Shown: one piece after another, positions 11,017-29,228 of the stretch | Numbering within the stretch: position 1 is the first letter of the stretch | Layout: every line of letters begins with the position of its first letter | From: an uncultured Eubacterium sp. | GTDB taxonomy: Bacteria; Bacillota; Clostridia; Lachnospirales; Lachnospiraceae | DNA: 64,000 nt | Assembly: GCA_947089855.1 (NCBI GenBank) | Contig: CAMUML010000014.1 | Location: 1-64,000 of the forward strand | Reading direction: 5' to 3' | The notes under the pieces: model-generated | Database searches by the model: none | What the model saw: the letters and a program-made list of their open reading frames with translations, nothing else | Told to the model about the DNA's origin: nothing | Made by a program: the position numbers and the translations under genes

Positions 11017-14000
11017 ATGTTGAAACGCAAAGGAAATCTAAAAATGATAGCAGCGTTGTTCTGCGCATCTGCCTTTTTCGCTGCAGCCGTTCCATTCAAC
11101 GGCCAAGCTGCCCAAGCGGCTGCAAAAAAAGCCAGTAAAATAACGCTGAATAAAAGCACTGCAACCATGCTTGCCGGCAATAGCCTAAAGCTAAAAGCCA
11201 GCAAAGTTTCCCCGGCAAACGCTTCCAAAAGCGTAACCTGGAAAACATCCAACAAAAAACTGGCTACGGTTACCAGCAAAGGCGTTGTTAAGGCAAAAAA
11301 GGCAGGTACGGTGAAAATAACCGGAGTGTCCAAAACGAACCCAAAGGCAAAAGCAAGCTGTAAGGTCACCATTTATAACAAGACCAAAAAACTCACCCTG
11401 TATAGCGACAAAAACTATACATTATCAATCGATGAGTTTTTACAGCTGGAAGCGGAAGTTACCAGCCCATCCAGCAAGACGCAGCCAGTGAGCTGGAAAT
11501 CCAGCGATGCCGATATAGCAAAGATCAGCAAAAAAGGTTTGGTAAAAGCTTTAAGCGAAGGCACCGCAAAGATGACAGCTACATCCGGCGGCAAAAGCGT
11601 ATCGGTAAAGATTACCGTAGAAGAACCGGAGGAATACAATCCATCCGGCAATGAAACACCGGTATCGACTTACATAGTAGCATTTGACCCATCCGGCGGC
11701 AGTGCAGTCAATGCACAGAATGTCGTAAGCGGCAATACAGCTGTAAAGCCGGCAGATCCAGTACTCGCAGGTTATACATTTGCAGGCTGGTACAAAGACC
11801 GTATGCTGACGATGGCCTATGATTTTGCGTCTCCGGTTACTGAAAACCTGACGCTGTTTGCGAAATGGGAAATCGTAAAGCCGGCATCCTACCAGGTAAC
11901 CTTTGATTCTAATGGCGGCAGCGCAGTAGCGCCGCAGACAGTGGAAACGGGGAAGAAGGCGCAGCGGCCGGAAAATCCAAAGAAGCCAGGCCGTGTATTT
12001 ATCGGCTGGTTTACGGATAGCAGTTTCAAGGAAGCGTATGATTTTAATGCTGCTGTTACCCAGAATATCACGCTGTATGCAAAATGGGACAATACCTACG
12101 ACAACCGTCCGCCAAGCGGGTCAAACAGCGGCGGCAGTACGACACCGTCCCCGTCGCCATCGCCGGCAAGCTATACGGTTGCATTTAACAGCAATGGCGG
12201 CAGTGTAGTAGCATCCCTAACCGTAGAAAGCGGAAAAGCAGCTGCAAAACCAGCAGACCCAACAAAAGCAGGCTTTACATTTGGCGGCTGGTATACAGAC
12301 GCGGAATTAAAGCAGGCATATGACTTTCGTACCAATGTATCCGGGAACATTACATTGTACGCGAAGTGGAATGCAATTACCCCTTCCCAGCCAGAACAAA
12401 ATGTTCCGGTAAAGGGCTTGGACGACAATGACCCGGATATTGAAATTTACAGTGCGCAGGCGGATATAAAAAGCGTTGCTGTTAAGCAGCCTACGTTGGT
12501 TACCTTTACGGCAAATATCTTTGCAAATGTTGTATTAGGCAATGAAGATATACGGGTAGTTGCAGGCAGTACCTTGGTTGGCTATATGAAAGACGACGGT
12601 ACGCAAGGCGATGCGGTTGCAAATGACGGCATCTATACGCTGCAGGCCAGCCTTTCCAGTGAAAAAGAGGAATATGCCGAGTATCAGGTTGTTGCAAAAG
12701 ACGTTTCCAGTGAAAAGATAGGGATCGGTTTTTATGTACCTCTTTCGGATGCTGAAATCAGAGCTATGCAGCAGGTAGATACGCAGATTTCCAGCTTATT
12801 TGCACAGGCGCGGTTTGCAAGAAGCTCTGACAACACAAAGAAAGATGCTGTACAAAACCTGCTGGATGGATTGGCAGCGCAGGATCTGGTCAAAGCGGAT
12901 TCCATTTATTATGATGATACACAAAAATCGTTTTCTTTCCAATATGCATGCGGGGTTGATGGCGGCGTTTCCTTCCAGCAATTTAATGATGAGCTGGATT
13001 CCGGCATGGGCGGCAAAGCAGCCAGGGATACCCTTTATGCGGCAAATGCGGATAACGGGGACAGCGGTGATGCAGGCGCGGCAGGGACGGACCCTTACAA
13101 GGCCATTGTATTGAATGGTTTTGAAAATACATCGTTCCGCAGGGATTTTTACAATTCGTTGAAAAATGACTGGGACAGGCTTGGAATGCCAACCACAGTG
13201 GATACAGATGTGACAGTTGCAGATTTAAAGGCATTGCAGGGCTATGATGTTGTAGTCTTTGCTATGCACGGCAATGTTTATGTACAAAATGCAAGGTCGA
13301 GGAAAGTGCCTGTTTTATGTATTAACGAAGCAGTTTCACCAGTTACAGATTTGAATTATTCCTATGAACTGCGTTCCAGAAAATCGGTAAAGAAAGTAAT
13401 GCGTATGGATGGTACGTTAATGTATCTTATTATGCCGTCATTTTTTACCGATAGTTATGGGCTTAAGGAATTAAGCGGAAAATTTATCTATGCACAGCCA
13501 TGTATGTTCTTTGGATGCGACTGCCAGGGTACGGATCCTGACTACACAATGGCCCGTGCGCTGACTGGGCGTTCTGCAGAAGCGGTCGTAGGGTACCATA
13601 ACAGCGTCCGTTCCACATATGGCCGTGATGTTATGAAATGGACGGTTGAAAGAATGCTTGAGGGTGCGACAGTGCGCAATGCGTTGACTGCTGCAACCAG
13701 CAAATATGGCGCCAATGATGGCTGGGAAGATCCGTCAGATGATAAATATAAGGCATATCCAATGATCGAAGGCAATGAGCGCTTTACATTGGGAACCAGT
13801 GAAACACCGACGCAGGACAGCGGTATTTTAGTAGGAAAAGTATTAAAAGCATCTGACAGCACCCCAATTTCCAACGCTTTGGTTAGGGTTTACAAGGATG
13901 GGGCGCTAGTAGCAAGTGTACGTACTGGAAGCCGGGGCGACTACAGGGTTTCAAACCTTGCGCCAGGTACTTATTACGCACAGATTACAGCCGGGCACTT

Positions 14001-14910
14001 TAAGAGTATGCGTGCCGCAGTTGAAATTACAGCAAACCAGGTAACGTATCTGGAAAGCGCGCTTCTGATACAGGTAAGCGGCGTGAATTCTGGTATTGCA
14101 AACGGCACGATTACAAATTCTGTTACGACGGAAGAAGTAGGCGGCGTCCAGGTCCGCATGCGCAGGAACTGGAATAATAAGGCGGGGGCAGTACTGCATA
14201 CTACTACGACAAATGAAAACGGGCTTTACAACATTTCGTATACGCCTGGTTTCTATACGTTGGAGCTTTCAAAAGAAGGTTTTGTTACTGCCTATAAAAA
14301 TATCATCATCGGGATTGTAGACCTTGCGGCACAGGATGCAAACATATCCCCGGCTATGGTTGAAGGGACGTACCGTATCGTGCTTACCTGGGGCGAAGAT
14401 CCAAGGGATCTGGATTCCCATGTTGTTGGTACACTTTCCGACAATGAAAGGTTCCATGTATATTTCTCAGATAAGGAACAGTATGATGGGGATACGCTGG
14501 TTTGTGACCTGGATGTGGATGATGTAACCAGTTACGGGCCGGAAACGGTTACCCTGACCACACAGAATGACCAGCCTTACTATTACTATATCCACCATTA
14601 TTCCGGGGACGGTTCTATTTCCAGCTCATATGCTAAGGTAGTTGTTTATGAAGGAAGCAGGATCGTTGGTACTTACAATGCACCTACCGACCAGGGGACA
14701 GAGATTTACTGGAATGTATTTGCAATTGTAAATGGCCAGCTAGTTGTGAAAAATACCATTACGGAACGTCCGGATGTAAGCTATGCCGGTGCAGGCGGCA
14801 ACGTGGATGGCCTAGTGGATGGTTCAAAAGCGCGGCGTTCTTCACAGCGTGTGGAAGATTTTGTACAGAAACTGGTAAATGACACGAAAAAGAACAAAAA
14901 AGCTGCTTAA
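11017..14910 (+). CDS. Large secreted protein: Big_2 domains, InlB repeats, caspase-fold-like core, carboxypeptidase-regulatory-like repeats
   Basis: 1297 aa with a signal peptide (first ~32 residues, Ala-rich cleavage region). In order: two bacterial Ig-like (Big_2) domains (about 38-200); three Listeria-Bacteroides (InlB) repeats of the AGYTFAGWY...LFAKW type (about 217-455) separated by a Ser/Pro linker; a central domain; two carboxypeptidase-regulatory-like beta domains (about 945-1110); and a C-terminal beta domain beginning LTWGEDPRDLDSH. The central domain has a His-Gly pair (H751-G752 in FAMHGN) and a Cys-rich strand end (FFGCDCQG, C834/C836), spaced as in caspase-fold (C14/C25/CHAT-like) peptidases. 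That assignment is an inference. AAGGAGGG precedes the ATG. It is the first of three consecutive giant secreted proteins. Confidence 0.8.
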   Translation: MLKRKGNLKMIAALFCASAFFAAAVPFNGQAAQAAAKKASKITLNKSTATMLAGNSLKLKASKVSPANASKSVTWKTSNKKLATVTSKGVVKAKKAGTVKITGVSKTNPKAKASCKVTIYNKTKKLTLYSDKNYTLSIDEFLQLEAEVTSPSSKTQPVSWKSSDADIAKISKKGLVKALSEGTAKMTATSGGKSVSVKITVEEPEEYNPSGNETPVSTYIVAFDPSGGSAVNAQNVVSGNTAVKPADPVLAGYTFAGWYKDRMLTMAYDFASPVTENLTLFAKWEIVKPASYQVTFDSNGGSAVAPQTVETGKKAQRPENPKKPGRVFIGWFTDSSFKEAYDFNAAVTQNITLYAKWDNTYDNRPPSGSNSGGSTTPSPSPSPASYTVAFNSNGGSVVASLTVESGKAAAKPADPTKAGFTFGGWYTDAELKQAYDFRTNVSGNITLYAKWNAITPSQPEQNVPVKGLDDNDPDIEIYSAQADIKSVAVKQPTLVTFTANIFANVVLGNEDIRVVAGSTLVGYMKDDGTQGDAVANDGIYTLQASLSSEKEEYAEYQVVAKDVSSEKIGIGFYVPLSDAEIRAMQQVDTQISSLFAQARFARSSDNTKKDAVQNLLDGLAAQDLVKADSIYYDDTQKSFSFQYACGVDGGVSFQQFNDELDSGMGGKAARDTLYAANADNGDSGDAGAAGTDPYKAIVLNGFENTSFRRDFYNSLKNDWDRLGMPTTVDTDVTVADLKALQGYDVVVFAMHGNVYVQNARSRKVPVLCINEAVSPVTDLNYSYELRSRKSVKKVMRMDGTLMYLIMPSFFTDSYGLKELSGKFIYAQPCMFFGCDCQGTDPDYTMARALTGRSAEAVVGYHNSVRSTYGRDVMKWTVERMLEGATVRNALTAATSKYGANDGWEDPSDDKYKAYPMIEGNERFTLGTSETPTQDSGILVGKVLKASDSTPISNALVRVYKDGALVASVRTGSRGDYRVSNLAPGTYYAQITAGHFKSMRAAVEITANQVTYLESALLIQVSGVNSGIANGTITNSVTTEEVGGVQVRMRRNWNNKAGAVLHTTTTNENGLYNISYTPGFYTLELSKEGFVTAYKNIIIGIVDLAAQDANISPAMVEGTYRIVLTWGEDPRDLDSHVVGTLSDNERFHVYFSDKEQYDGDTLVCDLDVDDVTSYGPETVTLTTQNDQPYYYYIHHYSGDGSISSSYAKVVVYEGSRIVGTYNAPTDQGTEIYWNVFAIVNGQLVVKNTITERPDVSYAGAGGNVDGLVDGSKARRSSQRVEDFVQKLVNDTKKNKKAA

Positions 14911-14940
14911 CAAAGAAGCAGGCGGGATAGAAACCGCCGC

Positions 14941-14976
14941 GGGAGGCCAGGGGAAGCCAGGCCTCCCAGGCTTTTT
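14941..14976 (+). terminator. Rho-independent terminator
   Basis: GGGAGGCC at 14941-14948 pairs with GGCCTCCC at 14960-14967, followed by CTTTTT at 14971-14976. It lies 30 bases after the stop of the Big_2/InlB protein and separates it from the next secreted protein. Confidence 0.85.
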
Positions 14977-15136
14977 AGGTTCCATAACATTAAATGGCGC
15001 CAAAAGGGTTCCTGCCGGTAGGGGAGGGGGAGTAGGAGTATTTTTGGTACGGTTTAATTTCGGAAACTTAAATGATCGGCAACTATTGGCTAGCAGTTAC
15101 TTGCAACTGCTTAAAAATAAATAAAGGAGAATTTGT

Positions 15137-18100
15137 ATGAAAAGAAAAATGATTGCAATGACACTTGCAATTACAGTAACCTTGTCAGGAGCAGCGGTAT
15201 CGGATGTGTACCAGGCGGATGCGGCGGCTGTCCAGGAAATCGGTGCAACAGACGGTGCGGTCACGGAAGATGTGTCGGGCCAGTTGATTCAAAATGGCGG
15301 GTATCTGGCGGAAGCACCAGACGATGGGGTGATGCCGCTGGCTGACATTGATAATGCCAAGAAACAGCGGATACAGGAGAAGCTGAAAGCAGCGTGGGAT
15401 TCGGTTTCCGATGGGTGTGATTTAACCGAATTCCAGCTTACAAGGGAAGAATTAAAATCTATTTATTTTGAAACGGTCAACCAATATCCGAGGTATTTTT
15501 ACGTAGCAGGCGGATATAGTTCGTATTATGATTCCGAAGGCTGGGCTACCAGGCTGGTAAATATTGGATATTCCACGCAGGATACGGCTAAGATCAGGGA
15601 TATGCTGAATGAGTATGATGCCGCAGTCGCAAAGGTAACAGGGGCCGCACAGGCTTCCTGGAGCGATATGGAAAAGGCGCTTTATATCAACGATTACCTG
15701 GCCCGCAATTGCGCTTACGATACGACATATTCCAAACATAATGCCTATGATGTATTGGTCGGGCGTTCCGCAGTCTGCCAGGGGTATGCGCTTGCATTTA
15801 GGGAACTGGCACAGCAGTTAGGGCTGTCTTGTGAAATTGTAAGCAGTACTGCGTTGAACCATGCATGGGATCTGGTAAAGGTCGGTGGGTCATACTATCA
15901 CGTAGATGTTACGTGGAACGACCCAGTCAAAGACCGCATTGGAAGGGCCAGGCACCATTATTTTATGAAAAGCTCCAGCTTTTTCCAGAGTACAGCGGGC
16001 AAACATGCCGCCAATGACTGGGAGATTACCGGGGGAATAACGGCTGCAGCCGCTGCTAATACAAGCTATGACAGCTATTTTTGGAATGATATAGATACTG
16101 GTTTTGAATATGTTGACGGAAACTGGTACGGATTTGACGGGGTAGATGCCATCAAAAAATATACCTGTGATGGCGCAGGCTTTACCCCAGTTGAAGATCT
16201 GGTAAAAATCGAAGACGTCTGGACCGTTATTGGAAGCACTAGTTATTATACGGATAAATTTACTGGTTTAGGTGTTTTAGACGGGGCATTGTGCTATTCC
16301 GGAAAAGACAAAATATATGAACTAAATCTGCAGACAAAGACAAGCGAAGCCATCTTTGAATTGCCGGATGCACAAAAACAGACAGGCTGGATTTATGGTA
16401 TGAATATATCGCCAAGCGGGGAAATCCAATATGTCCTTGCACCAGATCCAAATGTGGAAGGTACGGTATATAAGGCGGAGCTAAGTTCCTGCCAGGTTAC
16501 CTTTGACGGAAACGGTGCAGACACCGGTAGTATGGCAGCGATGCTGCTGCGCAGGCCGGGCCAGGAATACCAGCTGCCGGCAAACGTGTTTACAAAAAAA
16601 GGCCATGATTTTAAAGGCTGGAATACCAGGGCAGACGGCAGCGGGGATTCTTTTGCAGACCAGGCAGCAGTTACCCAGGCAGCCATTGGCGGCAGCGGGG
16701 CTACCCTCTATGCGCAGTGGGAGATAGAAACAGAGCATACAAATACCGAAGTACGGAATGCAAAGGAAGCGACCTGTACCGAAGAAGGCTATACCGGGGA
16801 TACCTACTGCAAAGATTGCGGTACCTTAGTAGCACAAGGGGAGGCAATCCCAAAAACAGAGCATAGCTGGAATGACTTTTATACAGTAGATAAAGCGCCA
16901 ACCGCACAGGAAGCAGGCAAGGAATCAGTCCATTGCCAAAACTGCGACGCTACCAAGGATGAGCGGGAGATTCCAAAGCTGGAAGAAGGCGAAACGCAGG
17001 TATACCAGATCACGTTCCAAGGCAATGGCTCCAGCAGCGGGGAAATGGAAACGATGCCCCTCTATACCGCAGGCCAGCAGTATATCCTTCCAGAAAATAA
17101 ATTTACCAGGGACGGGTATATTTTCAAAGGCTGGAATACCAAAGCAGACGGCAGCGGGGACGCTTATGCAGACCAGGGGGCGGTTAGCCATGCAGAAGAA
17201 GATACCAGCACAGGGATGGTGTTGTACGCACAATGGGAAGAACATGAACATACAATCGTAATTAAAGACCAAAAAGATGCGACCTGTATCGAAGACGGCT
17301 ATACCGGGGACAGTTATTGCGAAACATGCGGAAAACTGGTTTCACAGGGCGAGGTGGTTGAAAAGAAAGGCCATACGGAAGTCATTGACGAAGCGGTTGC
17401 AGCGACCTGTACCGAAGACGGCAAAACCCAGGGAAGCCACTGCAGCGTATGCAACGTTTTTATCATCAAACCGGAAACGGTCCCAGCCAAAGGGCATAGC
17501 TGGGAAACTGACTATACGATAGACAAAGCGCCGACAACAGAAGAAACGGGGTTAAAATCCATCCATTGCAGCAACTGCGACGAAAGGAAAAACGAACAGG
17601 AGATTCCTAAGCTGACAGAAGGTGAAGAGGCATACGAAGTCACCTTCGACGGGAACGGCGCTGGCAGCGGAACAATGGACAAGCTAGTAATAACAGCTAC
17701 AGGCCAGCCATTTAACCTTCCAGCAAATAAATTTGCAAAGCCAGGGTTTACTTTTAAAGGCTGGAATACCAAAGCAGACGGCAGCGGGGCTTCCTATGCC
17801 GACCAGGCCGCAGTCAGCCGCGCAGAAGGGGATACCGGCACAGGGATGACGCTGTATGCACAATGGGAAGCGCAGGCCGTACATGTACATACCACCGAAA
17901 TCCGCGGCAAAAAAGCGGCAACCTGCACCGAAGACGGCTATACCGGCGATACCTACTGCACTGATTGTGGGGAATTGGTTGCAAAAGGCGAGAAAATCGA
18001 AAAACTGGGCCATTCCTGGAATAATACCTATACAGTAGACAAAGCGCCGACTTATACAGAAACCGGAGTCGAATCCATCCATTGCAAAAACTGCAGCGAA

Positions 18101-19354
18101 GTCAAAGACAAACGGGTAATTCCAAAACTGGCTACAAGCAGTTCCGGAAACGGCGGTTCTGGAAGCGGCGGCTCTGGAAATGGCGGTTCCGGCAATACAA
18201 CCAATAATAACAACAACAATAACAGCAATAACAACAATAACAACAATAACAATCAAAATACGGGCGCAATTAAGCCAGGTAACGGGAATCCGTCTACGAC
18301 AACAGTAAATAATGCGGACGGAAGCGTTACCGTAACCAAAGAAACGACGGATGCCCTTGGCAGGACAGAAAAAAGGGTAACAACAACGCACCAGGTAAGC
18401 CCGACTACGAAAAAAGTAACGGAAACGGTTACAACCTATGCTGGGACGACAAAGACCGAGACTATCACAGAAAACAGGGCTGATGGATCAATCGTACAGA
18501 CCCAGACGGCTATTTCTGCAGACAACAAAGTGGTGGTAACAACAGCGGTTACCAATGCCGATGGCTCTGCGGTCAAAACCGAAAATAAGGCGGTTGCCAA
18601 TGCAAACGGTTCGGAAACATCTGTTACAACCACAACTGCATTAAACAGTGCAGGGCTGGTTACAGGGGTAACAGAAAAATCTGTCTTGAATGGCATAGCA
18701 AATACGCAAGTAGCGGTTACTGTCAAAAAAGATGGGTCGCAAAAGGTATTTAGCGCTACAGCTGCAGCAACCAGGCAGGCGGGCAACGGGGATACCTGTA
18801 TCCTGGATGCAGATATGGTCAGCCAGGTCAAAGAAGCGGCAGGCCAGGATGTAGCGATAACCCTGACCGTAAAGGAAGCGGACGGCACTAACAAATATAA
18901 GTTAAAAGTCGATACAAAAGACCTATCTGCCGGAAACAAGCTGTTTCTATACAGGCTAAAGTCAACAGGGGAATATATTATGGTCAACGGGGATATTTAT
19001 GCGGTCAGCGATACTGGGGCGGTAGCGGTTTTTATGGAAGATAAGGTAACATATGAACTTGTCAGCCAGGAAAAAGCATCGCAAATTAATAAGGAGATTT
19101 TAAAGACCGTAGCGGCAAGGAAATCTACCGCTTCCCTTAAAAGGAAAGGCAGTACCCAGTTCAAATTCAGTACCAGGCTGAATAAGCGCAATGTAAAGGG
19201 TATCCGGTATAAAACGTCGAATAAGAAGGTCGCGGCTGTGTCAAGCACCGGAAAGATTACAGGCAAGAAAGCTGGAACGGCAACCGTAAAGGCAGTGGTA
19301 ACATTGAAAAATGGGGCTTCCAAGACGGTTTCTGTGAAGGTGAGGGTAAAATAG
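15137..19354 (+). CDS. Large secreted transglutaminase-like protein with InlB repeats and a poly-Asn linker
   Basis: 1405 aa with a signal peptide (cleavage probably after ADA near residue 30). A transglutaminase-like cysteine protease/cross-linking fold occupies about 60-290, with the Cys-His-Asp triad C214 (SAVCQGYA), H242 (NHAW) and D257 (VDVTW). Then come three InlB-type repeats (GHDFKGWNT, YIFKGWNT, FTFKGWNT) alternating with Cys-x2-Cys repeats of the GYTGDTYCxxCG type. A Gly/Ser then almost pure Asn linker (about residues 1005-1045) leads to a Thr/Val-rich beta region and a C-terminal Big_2 domain. AAAGGAGA lies eight bases before the ATG. It probably acts at the cell surface. The substrate is unknown, and there is no LPXTG anchor. 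Confidence 0.85.
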   Translation: MKRKMIAMTLAITVTLSGAAVSDVYQADAAAVQEIGATDGAVTEDVSGQLIQNGGYLAEAPDDGVMPLADIDNAKKQRIQEKLKAAWDSVSDGCDLTEFQLTREELKSIYFETVNQYPRYFYVAGGYSSYYDSEGWATRLVNIGYSTQDTAKIRDMLNEYDAAVAKVTGAAQASWSDMEKALYINDYLARNCAYDTTYSKHNAYDVLVGRSAVCQGYALAFRELAQQLGLSCEIVSSTALNHAWDLVKVGGSYYHVDVTWNDPVKDRIGRARHHYFMKSSSFFQSTAGKHAANDWEITGGITAAAAANTSYDSYFWNDIDTGFEYVDGNWYGFDGVDAIKKYTCDGAGFTPVEDLVKIEDVWTVIGSTSYYTDKFTGLGVLDGALCYSGKDKIYELNLQTKTSEAIFELPDAQKQTGWIYGMNISPSGEIQYVLAPDPNVEGTVYKAELSSCQVTFDGNGADTGSMAAMLLRRPGQEYQLPANVFTKKGHDFKGWNTRADGSGDSFADQAAVTQAAIGGSGATLYAQWEIETEHTNTEVRNAKEATCTEEGYTGDTYCKDCGTLVAQGEAIPKTEHSWNDFYTVDKAPTAQEAGKESVHCQNCDATKDEREIPKLEEGETQVYQITFQGNGSSSGEMETMPLYTAGQQYILPENKFTRDGYIFKGWNTKADGSGDAYADQGAVSHAEEDTSTGMVLYAQWEEHEHTIVIKDQKDATCIEDGYTGDSYCETCGKLVSQGEVVEKKGHTEVIDEAVAATCTEDGKTQGSHCSVCNVFIIKPETVPAKGHSWETDYTIDKAPTTEETGLKSIHCSNCDERKNEQEIPKLTEGEEAYEVTFDGNGAGSGTMDKLVITATGQPFNLPANKFAKPGFTFKGWNTKADGSGASYADQAAVSRAEGDTGTGMTLYAQWEAQAVHVHTTEIRGKKAATCTEDGYTGDTYCTDCGELVAKGEKIEKLGHSWNNTYTVDKAPTYTETGVESIHCKNCSEVKDKRVIPKLATSSSGNGGSGSGGSGNGGSGNTTNNNNNNNSNNNNNNNNNQNTGAIKPGNGNPSTTTVNNADGSVTVTKETTDALGRTEKRVTTTHQVSPTTKKVTETVTTYAGTTKTETITENRADGSIVQTQTAISADNKVVVTTAVTNADGSAVKTENKAVANANGSETSVTTTTALNSAGLVTGVTEKSVLNGIANTQVAVTVKKDGSQKVFSATAAATRQAGNGDTCILDADMVSQVKEAAGQDVAITLTVKEADGTNKYKLKVDTKDLSAGNKLFLYRLKSTGEYIMVNGDIYAVSDTGAVAVFMEDKVTYELVSQEKASQINKEILKTVAARKSTASLKRKGSTQFKFSTRLNKRNVKGIRYKTSNKKVAAVSSTGKITGKKAGTATVKAVVTLKNGASKTVSVKVRVK

Positions 19355-19512: not shown

Positions 19513-19570
19513 AGTAAGTAAAAGGGATATGCAAATTAAATATTGCCAAATAATTTTATGGAGGAAAAGA

Positions 19571-22500
19571 ATGAGAAAAAGCTTTATGAAAAGAGCGGTT
19601 GCGGTTGTATTGTCAGCAGCAATTATAGTTTCAATGCCTTTTGCAAAAAACATTACAGCCGTATCAGCAGTACCTAAGTATGTTGGATTGAAAACAAAAT
19701 TTAAGACTTTGAAAGCCGGCGATATTTATAATTTGAGGCTCCAGAATAATACGCTTAACTGGAAAATTCAAAAGGCTGTTTCAAATGACACATCTATCTG
19801 CCAGGTAACAAACAAGACGAAGTATGTAAAGATTACTGCCAAAAATAAGGGTAGGGCATCCGTATGGGTGACTTTAAAAACAACCCAAAAACCAGCAGGA
19901 CGCAAGGATACTAAGAGGTTGAAATGCCGGGTAAATGTCAAATCGGCAGATGCCTCAAAGCCAGCAGACCCTATGGAGCCAATCAGTTCATCAGAGCCAA
20001 CCAGCTCTTCGCAGCCAGTGGTTGATACAGCCAAAACAGTTGCAACGCAATCAGAGCTGGACGAAGCATTGTCGAATGCAAGCTTTACTAATATAACAAT
20101 TAAGTCTGGCGAAGAGGATTTGGTAATAAAAGCGGGTGAATATAGGAATGTAAACTTGATTGTAGATGCACCAAATTCAGAGGTTGTTAACAACGGTATC
20201 TTTAAGTCTATTTCAATAAAGGCGATTAAAGATAACACTTGGACGGAAAAAGTATCCGGCAATAGTATCAAAGTAGAGGCTTTAAAAGCAAGTATTATTC
20301 TGGAAGATAGGACTGTATTATCAAATATATCATGCACAAAACCTGGAGCAGATATAAAATTGATTATAAAAGGTTCCGGACGAGTAGAGGCGGTTTCATT
20401 GGATGCAAAACTGAAACTAACGATACATGGTGATTCTGCAGTTCAGGTTCCAGTCATAATCAATGCGCAGGCAAAAGATGCAGAACTGGTTACAGACCTA
20501 TCAGCAGCAGTTACAACATCGATAGATGCATCCATTGTTTTCCAGAAAGGCGCAGAAAATAGCACAGTTCAGATTAGCAATGCCGCAGCGGTTGTTAAGG
20601 TACAAAATAACAGTACAGCTCCGATTACCGTTACGAAAGCCAACAATTCTACACAAAATGTGATAGCAGGGATGGTTGTTACCTTTAAGCCGGTATCGGA
20701 CAATACGAGCAGTGGCAATTTTACCGGGGGGGGGTATTATCCAAACGGGGGATACCATCCAGGTAGCGGAACAAACCCAGGCACCAGTGAACCAAGCAGC
20801 AGTGAACCAGTAAACAGCGAACCAAGCAGCAGCGAACCGGAAAATAGCGAACCAAGCAGCAGTGAACCGGTAAACAGCGAACCAAGCAGCAGCGAGCCGG
20901 AAAATAGCGAACCAAGCGGAAGCGAACCGGGTAGCAGCGAGCCGGAAAATAGCGAACCAAGCAGCAGTGAACCAGCGAACAGCGAACCAAGCAGCAGTGA
21001 ACCAGCGAACAGCGAACCAAGCAGCAGTGAACCGGCAAACAGCGGACCAAGTAGCAGCGAACCAGTAAATAGCGAACCAAGCGGAAGCGAATCGGGCAGC
21101 AGCGAGCCAGTAAACAGTGAACCAAGCAGCAGCGAACCGGTAAACAGTGAACCGGACAGCAGCGAGCCAAGCAGCAGTGAGCCGGTAAATAGTGAACCAA
21201 GCAGCAGCGAACCGGGTAGCAGTGGTTCATTTGTTGGTAATACACCTGTAAAAGTACATAATGATTTGGGGGATATTATTCTAGAACAATCAAAAGTAAA
21301 TGAGACAGGTTTAACAATTAAGATAGAAAACGTTGACAATATCTTAAAAGAAGGAAATGCAGACAAGGTTAAAATTACTGCAAAAATGTATTATAATGAT
21401 ATTGCTACGCAGGAAGTCACAGAAATAATTCCATTAGAAAATAATAAGCCGGAATACTTTGTGGATCTTAATAATTTTGGTAAGTTTACAGTGGATGTAG
21501 AATATGTAAAGAATGAGGAAACCCTATCACCATCAGAACCGGTTATTGTAGGAATTGCATCAGAATCTTATAACCTGGCCCCAATCAGTGCAACTTTCCC
21601 TGCGCTGCTGTTTTCGCTATCAATATGGGAAGGGTCTGATTATTGCATAACAAAAAGAGCAGATGGCACATATATTCCAACGATTACTGTTTTTGAAAGG
21701 GCGGATTCGTGGAATTGGGGCAATCTTCCGGAACATGTATATAAGCTTCCGACAGCTTCTGAAGAAGATTTTACAGGCGTAACTTGGGGAGGGCAGAAAT
21801 GGCTGGATTGCAGAAATAAAATGTCTGCTTACATTAAAGATTTGTATGAAATCAGCCCAAATGCAGAATTTAACCTTTATTACACAGACAATTACGTAGA
21901 AAATATGCTGATGCTGCTTGTAGCAAACCAGATACCAGAGTCACAGTATCATGTTGTCCTTCTATCCGATGGCAGTGGGACATATTCCTATTTTAAAGAG
22001 GCGTTCCAAAATGATACAGATGGATCTTTATATAATGCTATGCGCAAAGATTGGGAAAATCTAAAAGAGCAGACGAGGAAAGAAGGCAAGTTTGACCCAT
22101 CGAAGGCTGCTTATAGGGATTCTGTAAACCTTAAAAATACATGCCTTCCGAAATATGCTGCGGTTGCGGCAGAGGATGAAAATGTGGAATGGTGGGTAAA
22201 TAGGGCCAGAACAACCGATACGTTCAACATTAGCAATACAGAGCTTTCTGAAAAAGTTGTTGGGAATTGTACAGAAAGAAATGCATCCAAAATGCTCCAG
22301 TCATTAAGCGACGCTGATAAGGCGGATGATTTTAAGAATTTATATCATTTTGATAATGAGATGTTTCACCAGGCAGGTGAAGAAGGAAAACAAGTGATGC
22401 TGATTTTAGGTACTACAGTTGGAAATGAAAACAGTGAAGGTAATTTTAGCTCCTATGCCAAATTGGTAATGGATTATTATGGTGATGGCTATGTATATTA

Positions 22501-22936
22501 CTATAAAGGGCATCCAGGTACCCCAACCATCTTGTACCCTTCCAAGCAAAACCAATTAAATGAACTTGGTATAATAGATGTAGATTCTAGCATCCCTGCA
22601 GAGTTGATATTGTTCTTCTATCCAGACCTTTCGTTATGCGGCTATAATTCAACGACATTCCAAAGTGTGCAGTCTGCGCAAATGGCTTGCGGCATGTTTA
22701 ATATGACAAAGGAAAATGGGCTGGCAGAGCCTTATGGGCAGCTGCTTGATTTCTTTACTTACCGCATTAATAAAGACCATACTACTTATGGGTCTTATTG
22801 TTTAGAAGATAGCCACGCATATTTTGTACTGGAATTTAATGATACGGCGGACCATGAATTTGGAATTTACGATGCACAATTACAGACTTTCACCTACCCA
22901 GAAAATACGGAAGAAACATTAGATCCAGCAGCATAA
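19571..22936 (+). CDS. Secreted protein with Ser/Glu/Pro repeat stalk and GT80 (PM0188-like) sialyltransferase-like C-terminal domain
   Basis: 1121 aa from ATG 19571 (GGAGG eight bases upstream; the frame from 19529 has no ribosome site). A signal peptide (~1-35) is followed by a Lys-rich Big_2-like domain (~36-130), a parallel-beta-like region (~160-385), a 145-residue NSEPSSSEP stalk (~405-550), a small beta domain (~555-660) and a C-terminal domain (~670-1110). The last has the motif order of bacterial GT80/GT52-type sialyltransferases: an LLSDGSGTY strand (D800), a GTTVGNENSEGN loop, YYKGHPG (H981, the HP motif) and an STT phosphate-site-like motif (S1027-T1029). The family assignment rests on these motifs alone. 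An exported CMP-sugar transferase would be odd, because its donor is cytoplasmic. Confidence 0.7.
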   Translation: MRKSFMKRAVAVVLSAAIIVSMPFAKNITAVSAVPKYVGLKTKFKTLKAGDIYNLRLQNNTLNWKIQKAVSNDTSICQVTNKTKYVKITAKNKGRASVWVTLKTTQKPAGRKDTKRLKCRVNVKSADASKPADPMEPISSSEPTSSSQPVVDTAKTVATQSELDEALSNASFTNITIKSGEEDLVIKAGEYRNVNLIVDAPNSEVVNNGIFKSISIKAIKDNTWTEKVSGNSIKVEALKASIILEDRTVLSNISCTKPGADIKLIIKGSGRVEAVSLDAKLKLTIHGDSAVQVPVIINAQAKDAELVTDLSAAVTTSIDASIVFQKGAENSTVQISNAAAVVKVQNNSTAPITVTKANNSTQNVIAGMVVTFKPVSDNTSSGNFTGGGYYPNGGYHPGSGTNPGTSEPSSSEPVNSEPSSSEPENSEPSSSEPVNSEPSSSEPENSEPSGSEPGSSEPENSEPSSSEPANSEPSSSEPANSEPSSSEPANSGPSSSEPVNSEPSGSESGSSEPVNSEPSSSEPVNSEPDSSEPSSSEPVNSEPSSSEPGSSGSFVGNTPVKVHNDLGDIILEQSKVNETGLTIKIENVDNILKEGNADKVKITAKMYYNDIATQEVTEIIPLENNKPEYFVDLNNFGKFTVDVEYVKNEETLSPSEPVIVGIASESYNLAPISATFPALLFSLSIWEGSDYCITKRADGTYIPTITVFERADSWNWGNLPEHVYKLPTASEEDFTGVTWGGQKWLDCRNKMSAYIKDLYEISPNAEFNLYYTDNYVENMLMLLVANQIPESQYHVVLLSDGSGTYSYFKEAFQNDTDGSLYNAMRKDWENLKEQTRKEGKFDPSKAAYRDSVNLKNTCLPKYAAVAAEDENVEWWVNRARTTDTFNISNTELSEKVVGNCTERNASKMLQSLSDADKADDFKNLYHFDNEMFHQAGEEGKQVMLILGTTVGNENSEGNFSSYAKLVMDYYGDGYVYYYKGHPGTPTILYPSKQNQLNELGIIDVDSSIPAELILFFYPDLSLCGYNSTTFQSVQSAQMACGMFNMTKENGLAEPYGQLLDFFTYRINKDHTTYGSYCLEDSHAYFVLEFNDTADHEFGIYDAQLQTFTYPENTEETLDPAA
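20785..21220 (+). repeat. In-frame Ser-Glu-Pro repeat array
   Basis: About 28 imperfect 15-bp units alternating between codings for PSSSE and PVNSE/PENSE/PANSE, giving an acidic, proline-rich, extended stalk of about 145 residues. Third-base variation between units (agc/agt, ccg/cca, ggt/gta) shows selection for the peptide rather than for DNA identity. Expected to vary in length between strains. Confidence 0.9.
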
Positions 22937-24140: not shown

Positions 24141-25004
24141 TTATGATAACTGCATAACCTCGGCTTCAAGTTCTTTTAGCTCGTCAAACGATAAAGCCGG
24201 CACACATAAACCAATTTCTTCTAGTGATAACTTTCCCATTTTTATCATTCTTTCGGCTGTTTCTCTTTCCGTTTCCCTTTTAAGGTCTTTCTCATAAGTT
24301 CTCATAATCTGCTCATCATCAAATAAACTCATCATAATCGTTACCACCTCCACTTCCTTACTGCTTAAATATTGTTTGAGGATATTTCTATCCTTGCAGA
24401 TACGGATTGTTTCTGTAACTGCCTGTTTCGTCATTCCATGCACTTTTACCTGTTCATTAAAGACTTTGCAGAAGACAATGTACTCATTGATTATATTGTC
24501 CCTGTCACTCTCATATATGACTCTGGCTTTTATTTCAATGTCAATATCTGCTCCGTTAAAAAACTCTTTCGATAACGATATTATATCGGATTTCCTGCCT
24601 TTATTGCCCGTATAGATAACATACAATTCGGGTTTTGGCATTTTAACTTTTTTGCTCTTATACAGACTTTGTGATGTCCTTTCAAAATATTCATGATAGC
24701 TCTGTGCCAGATAGAGCAGTATTCTGATCAAAATATTTACCGTCCATGAAGCCTGTGCCTCCAAAAGTAAAAGCAGTTTATTGTTGCCTACCATGATCCC
24801 AAGATCATTATACAGATTATCAGTCAACACATTGTCTATCGTAACAATGTCCAGTTTGTCCTCTGTTGTGTCTGCATCCTCTGGGTGCAGTGTCTTATAC
24901 AGTTCCAGCAAATTCTTCTTATCTTGGAAAAGGTCTAAAAAAACACTGTTTTTAGCGGTGCGCTTTGCCTTAACTTCCTGCGTCTGTTTCGTATCGTCCG
25001 ACAC
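24141..25004 (-). CDS. Rpn family recombination-promoting nuclease / PD-(D/E)XK transposase-like, copy 1
   Basis: 287 aa. The N-terminal third carries the family pattern KNSVFLDLFQDKKNLLELY then YNDLGIMVG...LLLLLEAQASW, where the Asp and the E-x-Q form the PD-(D/E)XK nuclease centre. TYHEYFERT-like and KMPKPELYVIYTG motifs follow, with a charged tail. Rpn proteins are nicking nucleases linked to RecA-independent recombination of dispersed DNA. The gene has a consensus promoter at 25071-25099 and its own terminator. It is clearly homologous to the gene at 30987-31865, though the two have diverged. It abuts the mobilizable element on its upstream side. Confidence 0.85.
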   Translation of the reverse strand: MSDDTKQTQEVKAKRTAKNSVFLDLFQDKKNLLELYKTLHPEDADTTEDKLDIVTIDNVLTDNLYNDLGIMVGNNKLLLLLEAQASWTVNILIRILLYLAQSYHEYFERTSQSLYKSKKVKMPKPELYVIYTGNKGRKSDIISLSKEFFNGADIDIEIKARVIYESDRDNIINEYIVFCKVFNEQVKVHGMTKQAVTETIRICKDRNILKQYLSSKEVEVVTIMMSLFDDEQIMRTYEKDLKRETERETAERMIKMGKLSLEEIGLCVPALSFDELKELEAEVMQLS

Positions 25005-25123: not shown

Positions 25124-25308
25124 TTACAATTCCATATCCCATCCTTTCACCTGTCTGTGCTGGGGCTGTTCCGGCTGCATCACCCGTTTCACATCCCGCA
25201 TAACAATGCTGGCTTCTTTTGCTTTATCCCTTAACCCGCACATTTCGTCATACAGCTGGTCTTTCTCCGATACAAGCCTGGCAGCATCGCCTTTCCATGC
25301 CCCCCAGT
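25124..25308 (-). pseudogene. Out-of-frame 3' tail of the MobL relaxase gene
   Basis: Beyond the G6 tract at 25303-25308, the frame shifted by one base reads AWKGDAARLVSEKDQLYDEM and continues to ...VMQPEQPQ...WDMEL before TAA at 25126-25124. This is a normal-looking relaxase C-terminus (charged, coiled-coil-like). Removing one G from the tract would join it to the upstream relaxase frame. It may be a true frameshift, a slippage-prone switch or a sequencing error. Confidence 0.7.
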
Positions 25309-26570
25309 GTTACTTTCCGGTCAGAGGTATGCTCAATCAGATACCGCTCCGCATGGCTGTAAAGCGCAAGCTCCGTCCGGTGGCTTTCCGCAAAATACGC
25401 CTGTCTGCGCGGTTTTGTCTTTTTATACTGGACGTAACACTCACGGTTTTCATGGTAGATATTTGCCTGCCGGATCATTTCCTGCCGCTCATGCAGTCTG
25501 CCTTCCACTTGTTTAATCTGCTCCGTAACACACCTGCACCGGCTCCACAATTCCGATGCCGTCTCCTGAAGCTCCTGTATGGATTCAATGCTGTTTTCCC
25601 TCAAGAATGACGCACCGTCCGCAAAATCTATCGCGTCATTGTGTTTTCCATCCTTAAGCGCCCGGTTCATGGCCGCATCAAACAAATCTGCAAGCGTTGG
25701 ACCGCACTCCCTATCTTCTTTCTGTCCATTCAATTTTTTTAGATAAAGGCACAGCCACGCGATTTTGCGTTCTGTTTCTTCCAGCAGGCGGTTCTGTTCC
25801 ATGATCCGCCTGTTCTCCATTCCCCTTGCGGTGGATATGCCCCGGCGCTCCATCTGCGAAGCTGCCGCCCCCATATGCACAGTGGGAATTTTTTCTATTC
25901 CCTGACGCTTATAAGAGCGGTGGTCTACCGTTTCATGAAATCCCTGCTCCGCAAGCGTATGGTTCACGCAGTCTTCCCATGCCTTACGCCATTCCTCCGC
26001 CTTATCCCTGCTGTTCCAGTCGGTGGTGTCTGCCCGGCGGCTCTTATACCGGCCGTCTGCTTTTTTAAGCCGGTTTCCGTTCTTATCAAGGATATATTTT
26101 TTCCGGCATTTCGCTCCCCATTCCCCGGACTGTTCCAGAGGGCGCATTGTAAGCATGATGTGAGCGTGTGGGTTGCCGTCCTGCCTGTCATGGATGGAAA
26201 AATCGGCGCACATCCCGGCTGGCACGAAGCATCCATTTACATAATCTCTGATAAGCTGCATCTGGCTTTCCCTGTCCAGTTCCTTTGGAAGTGAAACTTC
26301 GACCTCCCTTGCAAGCTGCGCATTGCCGCTCTTTTCAATTCTTTCAACAGAGTTCCATAAGACAGAACGCTCCGAAAATTTTTCAGGCGCATGCGGCGGC
26401 AGCATATTCTCACTGTAAACAACTCCCTGTTTCCTTGTGTAGTCATGTGTAACGCCGTCATATTCATTCGTCATTTTCGTGCCGCTGCGGTACGCCGCCG
26501 ATGCAACCGCAGACCTTGGCTTTATTTCTCCCCTGCCTATTATTTTTATGCTGCAGTGATAGACTGCCAG
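25248..26570 (-). CDS. MobA/MobL family relaxase (3' end frameshifted)
   Basis: About 440 aa. The N-terminus LAVYHCSIKIIGRGEIKPRS and the metal-binding HDRQDGNPHAHIML (three-His motif) mark the MOBQ/MobL relaxases, which nick oriT and lead plasmid or element transfer. I place the start at the CTG at 26570, seven bases after AAAGGAGG, because MobL proteins begin at this point. An ATG at 26597 would put the ribosome site inside the gene. The frame ends early with a non-family tail (MERRCCQACIGERPAV) after a run of six G (25303-25308). The proper tail is in the next frame down to 25124. An oriT-like region lies just upstream. Confidence 0.85.
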   Translation of the reverse strand: MAVYHCSIKIIGRGEIKPRSAVASAAYRSGTKMTNEYDGVTHDYTRKQGVVYSENMLPPHAPEKFSERSVLWNSVERIEKSGNAQLAREVEVSLPKELDRESQMQLIRDYVNGCFVPAGMCADFSIHDRQDGNPHAHIMLTMRPLEQSGEWGAKCRKKYILDKNGNRLKKADGRYKSRRADTTDWNSRDKAEEWRKAWEDCVNHTLAEQGFHETVDHRSYKRQGIEKIPTVHMGAAASQMERRGISTARGMENRRIMEQNRLLEETERKIAWLCLYLKKLNGQKEDRECGPTLADLFDAAMNRALKDGKHNDAIDFADGASFLRENSIESIQELQETASELWSRCRCVTEQIKQVEGRLHERQEMIRQANIYHENRECYVQYKKTKPRRQAYFAESHRTELALYSHAERYLIEHTSDRKVTLGGMERRCCQACIGERPAV

Positions 26571-26601
26571 ACGCACACCTCCTTTCGGGCGATGCATTCA
26601 C

Positions 26602-27326: not shown

Positions 27327-29228
27327 TCATACGCCGCTCCTTTCCACGCTTTGAGCCGTCTGCCTTTTTTCTGCCCTCGGTATCTCTGGCACGCCCGCTT
27401 CGGTCACGATATAATAAACCCCGTCCGCGCGGTCTTTTGCCCGCTCCGCTTCTTTCATCGCGTCAACCTCTGCTGTTCTCTGTGCTTTGGTGCGCTCCTC
27501 ATAGGCTTTTTGCTGCCCGTTTGCCTTGCGCCTTAAATAATTCCGGTGCAGCCTGTCCTTCCTCGCTTCTTTTTTCCGTATTTCCTCCATTTCTTCCGGT
27601 GTCGGCTCCTTTTCCTGCATGGACGGCGGTATGAATTGCCCAATCAGGTTAAAATAAATTTCAATCTTCTGCGTGGTGTCCATGCTGCCCTTGCGGTCGC
27701 GCTCATGGACGACTATCTTCTCTATAAATTCATTCAGCATGACAGTTGTAAGGGTATCAAAATTTTCGTACCGTTCCACCAGCGCAAGGAACCTTGCCGC
27801 TGATTTCCTGTCATTCTCATACGCATCCTGCGCAGCCTTATAGCCTGCCATTTCCTGTAAAAGCTGCTCCTGCTCCTTTTCGTACTGGCACGACAGCATT
27901 TCATACCTTTTGTCGGGCAGCTTTCCAAGGGCATTGTCCTCATAAATCTTTGCAATCAGAATCTCAAGCTCCCCGGTGCGCTTTTCACAGGCCGCCATGC
28001 GCTTTTTCTGTGCGCTGAAATCAGCCGTCTGCCTCTGCTTCATATCCGCCCTTATCTCTTTTGCAAACGCCTCCCTGTCCACATCTGCATAACGTATCAC
28101 CTCTTTTATCATCTCCGACACAAGCGCCATGACGTCATCCGCTTTGACACGGTGCGCTGACTTACAGAGTGTGCCGATCGGTACCTTGCCATAATTAGCA
28201 CATGTGTACTGCGGGATGCGTTTCCCATTGTTTACCCTGTGGACATACATCTTGCCGCCACAGTCGGCGCAGTACATCAGCCCCGTAAGCGGGTGTGCCT
28301 CGCCCCACCCGTCCGGGTAGCGCCGCACCTGCCCACGGATACGCTGCACGTTGTCAAAAGTCTCCTGATCGATAATGGCCGGATGCGTGTTTTCAAAGAT
28401 AAGCCACTGGTCTTGTGAAACATAATGGCTTTTTTTGTCCTTAAAATGCTTTCGCGTCTTAAAATTCACCGTGTGGCCGAGATACTCCTGCTTTGCGAGG
28501 ATGCTGCAGACCGTAGTGCTGCTCCACTGGAACGGGTCTTTAAATTCCCTGTTCTGGTGCAGGCCGAGCCCAAGCTGTGCCTGATGGTATCTGGGGATCG
28601 GTATTTTATTCTCTGACAGCTTCTTTGCAATCTGGTACGGCCCAAAGCCCTCTATCGTCATACGGAAAATCCGGCGGACAACGGCAGCGGCTTCTTCGTC
28701 CACTATCCACTTATCCTTATCTTCCGCTGATTTTAAATACCCATACGGCGGCGCGCTGGCAACGTGTTTCCCCGCATTCCCTTTTGCAAGGAACGTGGAG
28801 CGGATTTTTTTGCTCGTGTCGCGGGCATACCACTCATTCATGATATTTCTAAAAGGCGTGAAATCATCATCCCCTCTGAAACTGTCAACGCCGTCATTGA
28901 CCGCAATGAGCCTTACGCCCATCTTGCGCATGGTTTCCATGTACATTCCGACTTTCAGATAGTCGCGTCCAAGCCGGCTCATATCTTTGATGCAGACAGC
29001 CCCGACATTCCCCTTTTCAACCTGTTCCAGCATCGCCACGAAGCCGGGGCGGTCAAACCGGATGCCGGAGATCCCATCGTCCGTAAAATGCCGTATGTTT
29101 CCAAGACCGTTCCTTTTTGCGTAGTCCTCTAAAAGACGCTTCTGATTGGAAATGCTGTTGCTTTCGCCCTGCAGTTCATCATCATGCGACAGACGCTCGT
29201 ACAAGGCCGTAATCTTTTGCTGTGCCAT
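27327..29228 (-). CDS. Large serine recombinase (TnpX/resolvase-invertase type)
   Basis: 633 aa. The resolvase domain begins ITALYERLSHDDE with the nucleophile S14, and continues with KDMSRLGRDYLKVG. Then come a recombinase domain (GFGPYQIAKKL...), a zinc-ribbon (MYCADCGG...YTCANY...C) and a long coiled-coil C-terminus ending in the DUF4368-like region (QKIEIYFNLIGQF). Length and order match the TnpX-like recombinases that excise and insert clostridial mobilizable elements. On the same strand follow DUF3847, oriT and MobL, forming one element. The right end of the element should lie shortly beyond 29228. Confidence 0.92.
   Translation of the reverse strand: MAQQKITALYERLSHDDELQGESNSISNQKRLLEDYAKRNGLGNIRHFTDDGISGIRFDRPGFVAMLEQVEKGNVGAVCIKDMSRLGRDYLKVGMYMETMRKMGVRLIAVNDGVDSFRGDDDFTPFRNIMNEWYARDTSKKIRSTFLAKGNAGKHVASAPPYGYLKSAEDKDKWIVDEEAAAVVRRIFRMTIEGFGPYQIAKKLSENKIPIPRYHQAQLGLGLHQNREFKDPFQWSSTTVCSILAKQEYLGHTVNFKTRKHFKDKKSHYVSQDQWLIFENTHPAIIDQETFDNVQRIRGQVRRYPDGWGEAHPLTGLMYCADCGGKMYVHRVNNGKRIPQYTCANYGKVPIGTLCKSAHRVKADDVMALVSEMIKEVIRYADVDREAFAKEIRADMKQRQTADFSAQKKRMAACEKRTGELEILIAKIYEDNALGKLPDKRYEMLSCQYEKEQEQLLQEMAGYKAAQDAYENDRKSAARFLALVERYENFDTLTTVMLNEFIEKIVVHERDRKGSMDTTQKIEIYFNLIGQFIPPSMQEKEPTPEEMEEIRKKEARKDRLHRNYLRRKANGQQKAYEERTKAQRTAEVDAMKEAERAKDRADGVYYIVTEAGVPEIPRAEKRQTAQSVERSGV

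Follow-up and report, generated by a model that had tools for sequence, protein, structure and literature searches.

An exported GT80-like protein of an uncultured Eubacterium, predicted to act on sialic acids outside the cell

Sialyltransferases of family GT80 are used as laboratory tools for sialylation; that they also act as sialidases and trans-sialidases on the side is regarded as a nuisance. In three Photobacterium enzymes, the sialidase activity was stimulated by cytidine monophosphate (CMP), most strongly in P224-ST (PMC4521712), which is here taken to be the enzyme of strain JT-ISH-224. For PmST1 of Pasteurella multocida, the sialidase and trans-sialidase activities, described at pH 5 to 6.5 (PMC12797295), were attributed mainly to reverse sialylation (PMC10795189). 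The present analysis deals with a protein related to these enzymes, encoded at 19571..22936 on the plus strand of a 64,000-nucleotide stretch (the window; contig CAMUML010000014.1, assembly GCA_947089855.1) from an uncultured Eubacterium sp. of the Lachnospiraceae. The preferred reading, with a probability of roughly 0.55, is that the gene encodes an enzyme that is exported, has a GT80-type sialyltransferase fold, keeps an intact catalytic site for binding CMP and is predicted to work extracellularly, on sialic acids or on a related nonulosonate. Tools support the export segment, the homology, the predicted fold and the conservation of the active-site residues, while we infer the donor, the acceptor and the direction of the reaction.

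The family link had been proposed in an earlier note from the motifs alone, with the predicted structure named as a check, and it was borne out by two lines of comparison. The AlphaFold2 model supports a glycosyltransferase GT-B fold for the C-terminal domain (21560..22897; model residues 101-546), and in the structure comparison the top 21 entries were all GT80 sialyltransferases, far above the next, with the PmST1 structures among those matched. In a profile comparison by hhalign with a true GT80 from Vibrio, the E value was 7e-5, and the score of 44.2 exceeded the highest one among 100 shuffles (25.3). In the Pfam check, which had also been proposed, the window protein had no match to PF11477 and the curated cut-off was not reached, although 7 of 47 family members matched at E <= 1 (best E 8.6e-5). 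Because the full D/E-D/E-G motif and a PF11477 score above the cut-off are both lacking, the new group is not filed as a GT80 member; it is a GT80-like sister branch, and most likely acts in the same manner. Membership in GT38 was rejected on a score under the Pfam cut-off, a weaker fold match and a different motif spacing. The search of the Protein Data Bank (PDB) with the window sequence alone returned chance-like matches only, NCBIfam returned nothing useful, and the PF11477 search of the own genome was empty, as it was in 14 control genomes.

Conservation was followed in an alignment of 47 rows (46 different, some of them near-copies; L046 and L050, cut by contig ends, excluded). The LLSDGSGTY strand reported earlier is present at 21959-21985. 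Within it, the S-D-G motif (21965..21973) aligns with the DDG of the Vibrio GT80, with Asp and Gly both invariant (47/47), and the Asp at 21968-21970 is the equivalent of the catalytic base D141 of PmST1; it is D800 when counted from 19571 and D814 when counted from 19529. The suggestion that this strand occupies the place of the (D/E)-(D/E)-G motif holds for the second acid and the Gly, but not for the strict first acid, which is Ser in 42 rows and Thr in 5. In PmST1 the first acid, D140, faces the core and the second, D141, is the suggested base (PMC2169525), so that Ser or Thr at the first position need not abolish catalysis. The KGHP motif (22505..22516), whose His (22511-22513; H981, or H995 from the upstream start) was also pointed out in the note, corresponds to the PmST1 motif KGHP, which includes H311, and its four residues are invariant in the 47 rows and present in all 20 loci found by profile.

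Further equivalents were placed by the PmST1 alignment, namely a Glu at 22601..22603 for E338 (47/47) and an S-T pair at 22649..22654 for S355-S356 (S 41/T 6, then S 39/T 8). D141, H311, E338, S355 and S356 are described as important in PmST1 (PMC4202792), and a GT38 enzyme carries an equivalent set made up of a Lys for cytosine, a Glu for ribose, the His of HP and a Glu base (PMC5517516). The equivalents are kept throughout the alignment, with Asp, Lys, His, Pro and Glu each in 47/47 rows and the Ser/Thr pair in 47/47. Two of the motifs in the earlier note are looser than it implied: S-T-T is present in the window protein (22649-22657) but is mostly SST among relatives, and GTTxxxxN has its GTT at 22409-22417 but only the G is invariant. 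The G-T turn (LGT; 22409..22414), with G in 47/47 and T 38, S 8, N 1 at the next position, aligns with the VGT of the Vibrio GT80, and a conserved Arg after WW (22202..22204; 45/47) aligns with the Arg of TYHMLRAD in the same protein.

The spacing of the motifs also follows GT80. In this family the distance from D/E-D/E-G to HP is about 50 residues above that of other families (PMC2169525), and the distance from base to His is 181 residues in the window protein, 168-217 in its family, 170 in the Vibrio GT80 and 117 in a PF07388 protein. In space, the base and the His of PmST1 are 8.4 A apart in the closed form and 14.0 A apart in the open one (PMC5517516). Whole-profile searches, in which no pattern was used, returned 20 loci, of which 9 repeated aligned rows and 11 were new, with 34-66% identity to the nearest aligned row; D, K, H, P and E were kept in 11/11 of these. 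The motifs of the window protein are more than chance. Another invariant Asp is model residue 210; it falls in the N-terminal half, a region too poorly aligned with a true GT80 for residue matching. The position after DGS is Ala or Gly in 38/47 rows. An Ala (A235) stands there in a 2,6 enzyme (PMC8512710), and by our own reading of the sequence the 2,3 enzyme of P. phosphoreum has it as well; because Ala occurs in both enzyme types, no prediction of 2,3 versus 2,6 linkage is made.

The second element of the preferred reading is export. The window protein begins with a hydrophobic stretch followed by an AVSA-type site (19571..19669, read by eye from the translation). A simple rule of hydrophobicity and motif, with a crude split into types, scored an N-terminal hydrophobic segment in 39 of 48 relatives (16 with a lipobox, 12 with an AxA site, 11 other), and with L024, where the segment lies further in, the total is 40/48. 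The remaining eight comprise three genes cut by contig ends, L010 with an in-frame lipobox-like segment upstream, L019 and L033 with a hydrophobic segment in another frame, L007 with a run of N, and L006, whose 5' part lies in another frame and has no segment to be seen there. In L006, L019 and L033 the 5' part of the gene is out of frame with the domain, perhaps by sequencing error or decay. Surface modules (LRR_5, fn3, ChW, SLH with InlB-type, or ricin-type lectin) were found in all nine relatives chosen for length; the scan for modules covered these nine, and many short members were scanned for the domain only. Because of the export segments and the extracellular modules in relatives, the domain is most likely extracellular, and for the same reasons a plain cytoplasmic capsule enzyme was put low.

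The earlier note had set this protein against GT80s known mostly as cytoplasmic enzymes, which is not simply so. Lipobox-like starts were found in the Vibrio GT80 and in the deposited 2z4t sequence. Exported GT80s, to judge from these starts, probably exist in Vibrionaceae, so the contrast is weaker than claimed. A word search of the review PMC2996176 found none of the words signal, lipoprotein and membrane.

The supply of a donor was surveyed in 48 carrier genomes (own genome included, L049 excluded). The statement that there is no obvious donor does not hold for the cytoplasm of the own genome, which has 7 NeuB and 7 CTP_transf_3 matches and a separate PF07388 protein, but 45/48 carriers are without a full-length NeuB. 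A NeuB match over the cut-off was obtained in 16/48 carriers and was full-length and strong (E below 1e-60) in three, the own genome with 7 copies, G099 and G108; the matches in the other 13 are partial and weak, and presumably represent related 3-deoxy-D-arabino-heptulosonate 7-phosphate (DAHP) synthases. CTP_transf_3 was strong (E below 1e-15) in 6/48. None of nine strain genomes (L018, L020, L021, L022, L024, L031, L038, L047, L051) had a strong NeuB, while absence in other carriers is weak evidence because many are metagenome-assembled genomes, some under 1.5 Mb. The NeuB and CTP_transf_3 tally of the own genome (G000), spread over contigs C5, C22, C23, C25, C33, C45 and C95 with several genes close together on one contig, exceeds that of any other genome among the 48. 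About 4 kb from a NeuB/CTP_transf_3 pair on C45 lies a 361-aa PF07388 protein (L073:1192-2277) that has EEG, HP and SS motifs, lacks an evident signal peptide and is perhaps the nonulosonate transferase of this genome; against the family profile it gave no useful match (E 0.053 over 22 columns).

In the proposed mechanism, D800 would act as the general base, and the Lys, the His, the Glu and the Ser/Thr pair would hold CMP. As no donor is produced extracellularly and the synthesis genes are missing from most carriers, either of two sources may serve, both less certain than the site itself: environmental CMP, with which the enzyme would move sialic acid between glycans by reverse sialylation, as a trans-sialidase or sialidase, or CMP-sialic acid derived from the host. 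Known GT80s both release sialic acid and transfer it, the more so with CMP, so that CMP from the surroundings could be the shuttle of an exported, donor-less GT80-like enzyme. The Ig-like domain, together with the ChW, SLH, LRR and ricin-type modules of relatives, would place the enzyme at the cell surface or on glycans.

A number of results weigh against this reading. The hhalign probability with the true GT80 was only 63-68%; the PF11477 score of L005 was 21.5 against a cut-off of 25 bits; the 47-sequence profile found no PDB chain at E 10. A 558-aa piece scored 21.7 bits (E 1.7e-4) against PF07388, whose cut-off is 23.3, the full-length window protein had no match to it, and the other scores (22.3 bits for a shorter piece, 15.6 in the genome search) were likewise under the cut-off. 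The conservation of KGH is partly built in, KGH being one of the two recruiting patterns (40 of the 48 loci were recruited by KGH only, 5 by both and 3 by the other only), the first acid of D/E-D/E-G is replaced by Ser or Thr, and one of the 11 new loci, L072, has Asn at the first position of the Ser pair. The absence of full-length NeuB from most carriers leaves the donor unproven. BNR_2 sialidase matches occurred in only 9/48 carriers and not in the own genome, and no recurring sialic-acid operon was found among the 25 neighbour groups listed (48 loci, within 6 kb), for which reason a conserved operon was rejected. Finally, earlier reports of GT80 sialidase activity conflict, and for one enzyme CMP was not essential (PMC4521712).

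Other explanations share part of this evidence. The same intact active site would serve a surface sialyltransferase that takes CMP-sialic acid from the host and caps bacterial or mucosal glycans in the forward reaction only. Gonococci, unable to make sialic acid, sialylate their surface with scavenged host CMP-N-acetylneuraminic acid (CMP-NANA), but the same paper now puts the gonococcal enzyme inside the cell (PMC11078009), and free CMP-sialic acid in the gut lumen is only assumed; this explanation is possible at about one chance in four. A slightly less probable one is a transferase for another CMP- or nucleotide-activated sugar, with the GT80 pocket retuned. It would fit the 12-16% identity to known GT80s in structural alignments, the Ser/Thr at the first acid and the invariant Asp (model residue 210) unmatched to any known residue, yet every CMP-pocket residue (Lys, His, Pro, Glu, Ser/Thr) has its counterpart here, and any nucleotide sugar meets the same problem outside the cell.

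The adhesive role suggested by export, and by the ricin-type lectin and cell-wall-binding modules fused in some relatives, would make a catalytically dead lectin plausible, in which the GT-B fold binds sialylated glycans without turnover. A pure lectin is expected to lose some catalytic residues, whereas the base Asp and the phosphate-binding His are invariant in 47/47 rows and in 11/11 new profile-found loci, and this explanation is accordingly unlikely. Far less probable still is a cytoplasmic transferase for the cell's own nonulosonate glycans whose export signal was misread; the NeuB and CTP_transf_3 genes of the own genome, several neighbouring on one contig, speak for it, but one such locus, on C45, includes a PF07388 protein of its own that lacks an evident signal peptide, and relatives carry lipobox, signal-peptide-like or N-anchor segments, with extracellular modules in the nine long ones.

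The family is patchy in distribution. A first search of genome_contigs with a single sequence found no relative, and the later search found 48. In the 47-row tree there are 33 Bacillota, 12 Actinomycetota and 1 Mycoplasmatota in addition to the window, with 4 changes of phylum label against the least possible 2, which is no proof of transfer. The family occurred in 4 of 98 relatives' genomes, in 5 of 397 of the window's family, in 15 of 296 from the class of a Collinsella genome, and in 1 of 398 across the phylum, this one being the window's own. Named strains include Collinsella, Slackia, Sellimonas and Actinomyces, and in 8 record titles a site in the gut is given (cecum, colon, rectum, omasum or rumen). 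One 3.4-kb contig that was binned as Prevotella, possibly in error, carries a fragment of the family (L050:2-481). A phage or plasmid origin was rejected: viral_contigs gave 40 pattern matches and zero relatives, plasmids gave no match, and the phage search gave only 3 records, at E 0.3-0.7 over 24% of the query. When neighbours within 6 kb were clustered across the 48 loci, the largest group (10 loci) consisted of ChW/GH25-like surface proteins, named by eye; that they recur is probably due to the repeat module. Searches of one literature library found nothing joining GT80 with Collinsella or sialyltransferase with PF11477, and wider ones showed no such enzyme.

The open reading frame runs uninterrupted over 19529-22936 (1135 codons). 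Because a GGAGG box precedes the ATG at 19571, the true product is probably the 1121-aa protein, with 19529 as the alternative start. After the signal peptide come parts without a Pfam name, then a Ser/Glu/Pro-rich repeat stalk (20792..21208; low-complexity extensin-like match over residues 422-560, E 0.043), an immunoglobulin (Ig)/FnIII-like beta domain (21260..21559) and the GT-B domain; no LPXTG motif was seen by eye at the C-terminus. Upstream (11017-19354), also by eye, lies a run of surface proteins: two large repeat proteins whose starts resemble signal peptides and whose repeats are InlB-like and Ig-like, one of them with a transglutaminase-like part. Downstream, ORFs read in the same way resemble an Rpn-like nuclease at 24141-25004, a MobA/MobL relaxase at 25248-26597 and a serine recombinase at 27327-29228, and suggest a mobile element.

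By analogy with known GT80s, a wider extracellular trans-sialidase system may be proposed tentatively, in which Gram-positive commensals, including Collinsella aerofaciens, would move sialic acid from mucin or other glycans onto new ones, their own surface included, driven by extracellular CMP and mostly without making CMP-sialic acid; the exported GT80s of Vibrionaceae would be of the same kind. The branch is mainly Gram-positive, has an export segment in most members and is carried in several of them by modular surface proteins, and its site is strongly conserved despite no visible donor route in most carriers. If these enzymes are active, gut commensals would be modifying sialic acids of the host or of bacteria in a way that sialidase surveys miss, and the question arises why some GT80s are exported.

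Among the known systems, the best structural match is the alpha-2,6-sialyltransferase of Photobacterium sp. JT-ISH-224 (GT80, PDB 2z4t), at 12% identity; it comes from a Gram-negative marine bacterium and, unlike the window protein, has the first acid of DDG. PmST1/PM0188 (GT80; 2ihk, 3s44) shows 14-16% identity, its D140 is Ser or Thr here, and its alignment begins at the GT-B domain (model residue about 101), with the Ig domain outside. The GT38/PF07388 polysialyltransferases (e.g. 5wc6) have in common with the window protein the GT-B fold, the HP motif and a weak Pfam match. The Vibrio harveyi plasmid GT80 (WP_017817635; L075:1595-2809), annotated as a hypothetical protein on a plasmid predicted to be conjugative, matches PF11477 at E 7.9e-30; it shares with the new family a profile match and a similar base-to-His spacing, and has a lipobox-like start, but with 404 aa it has no space for an Ig domain or surface modules.
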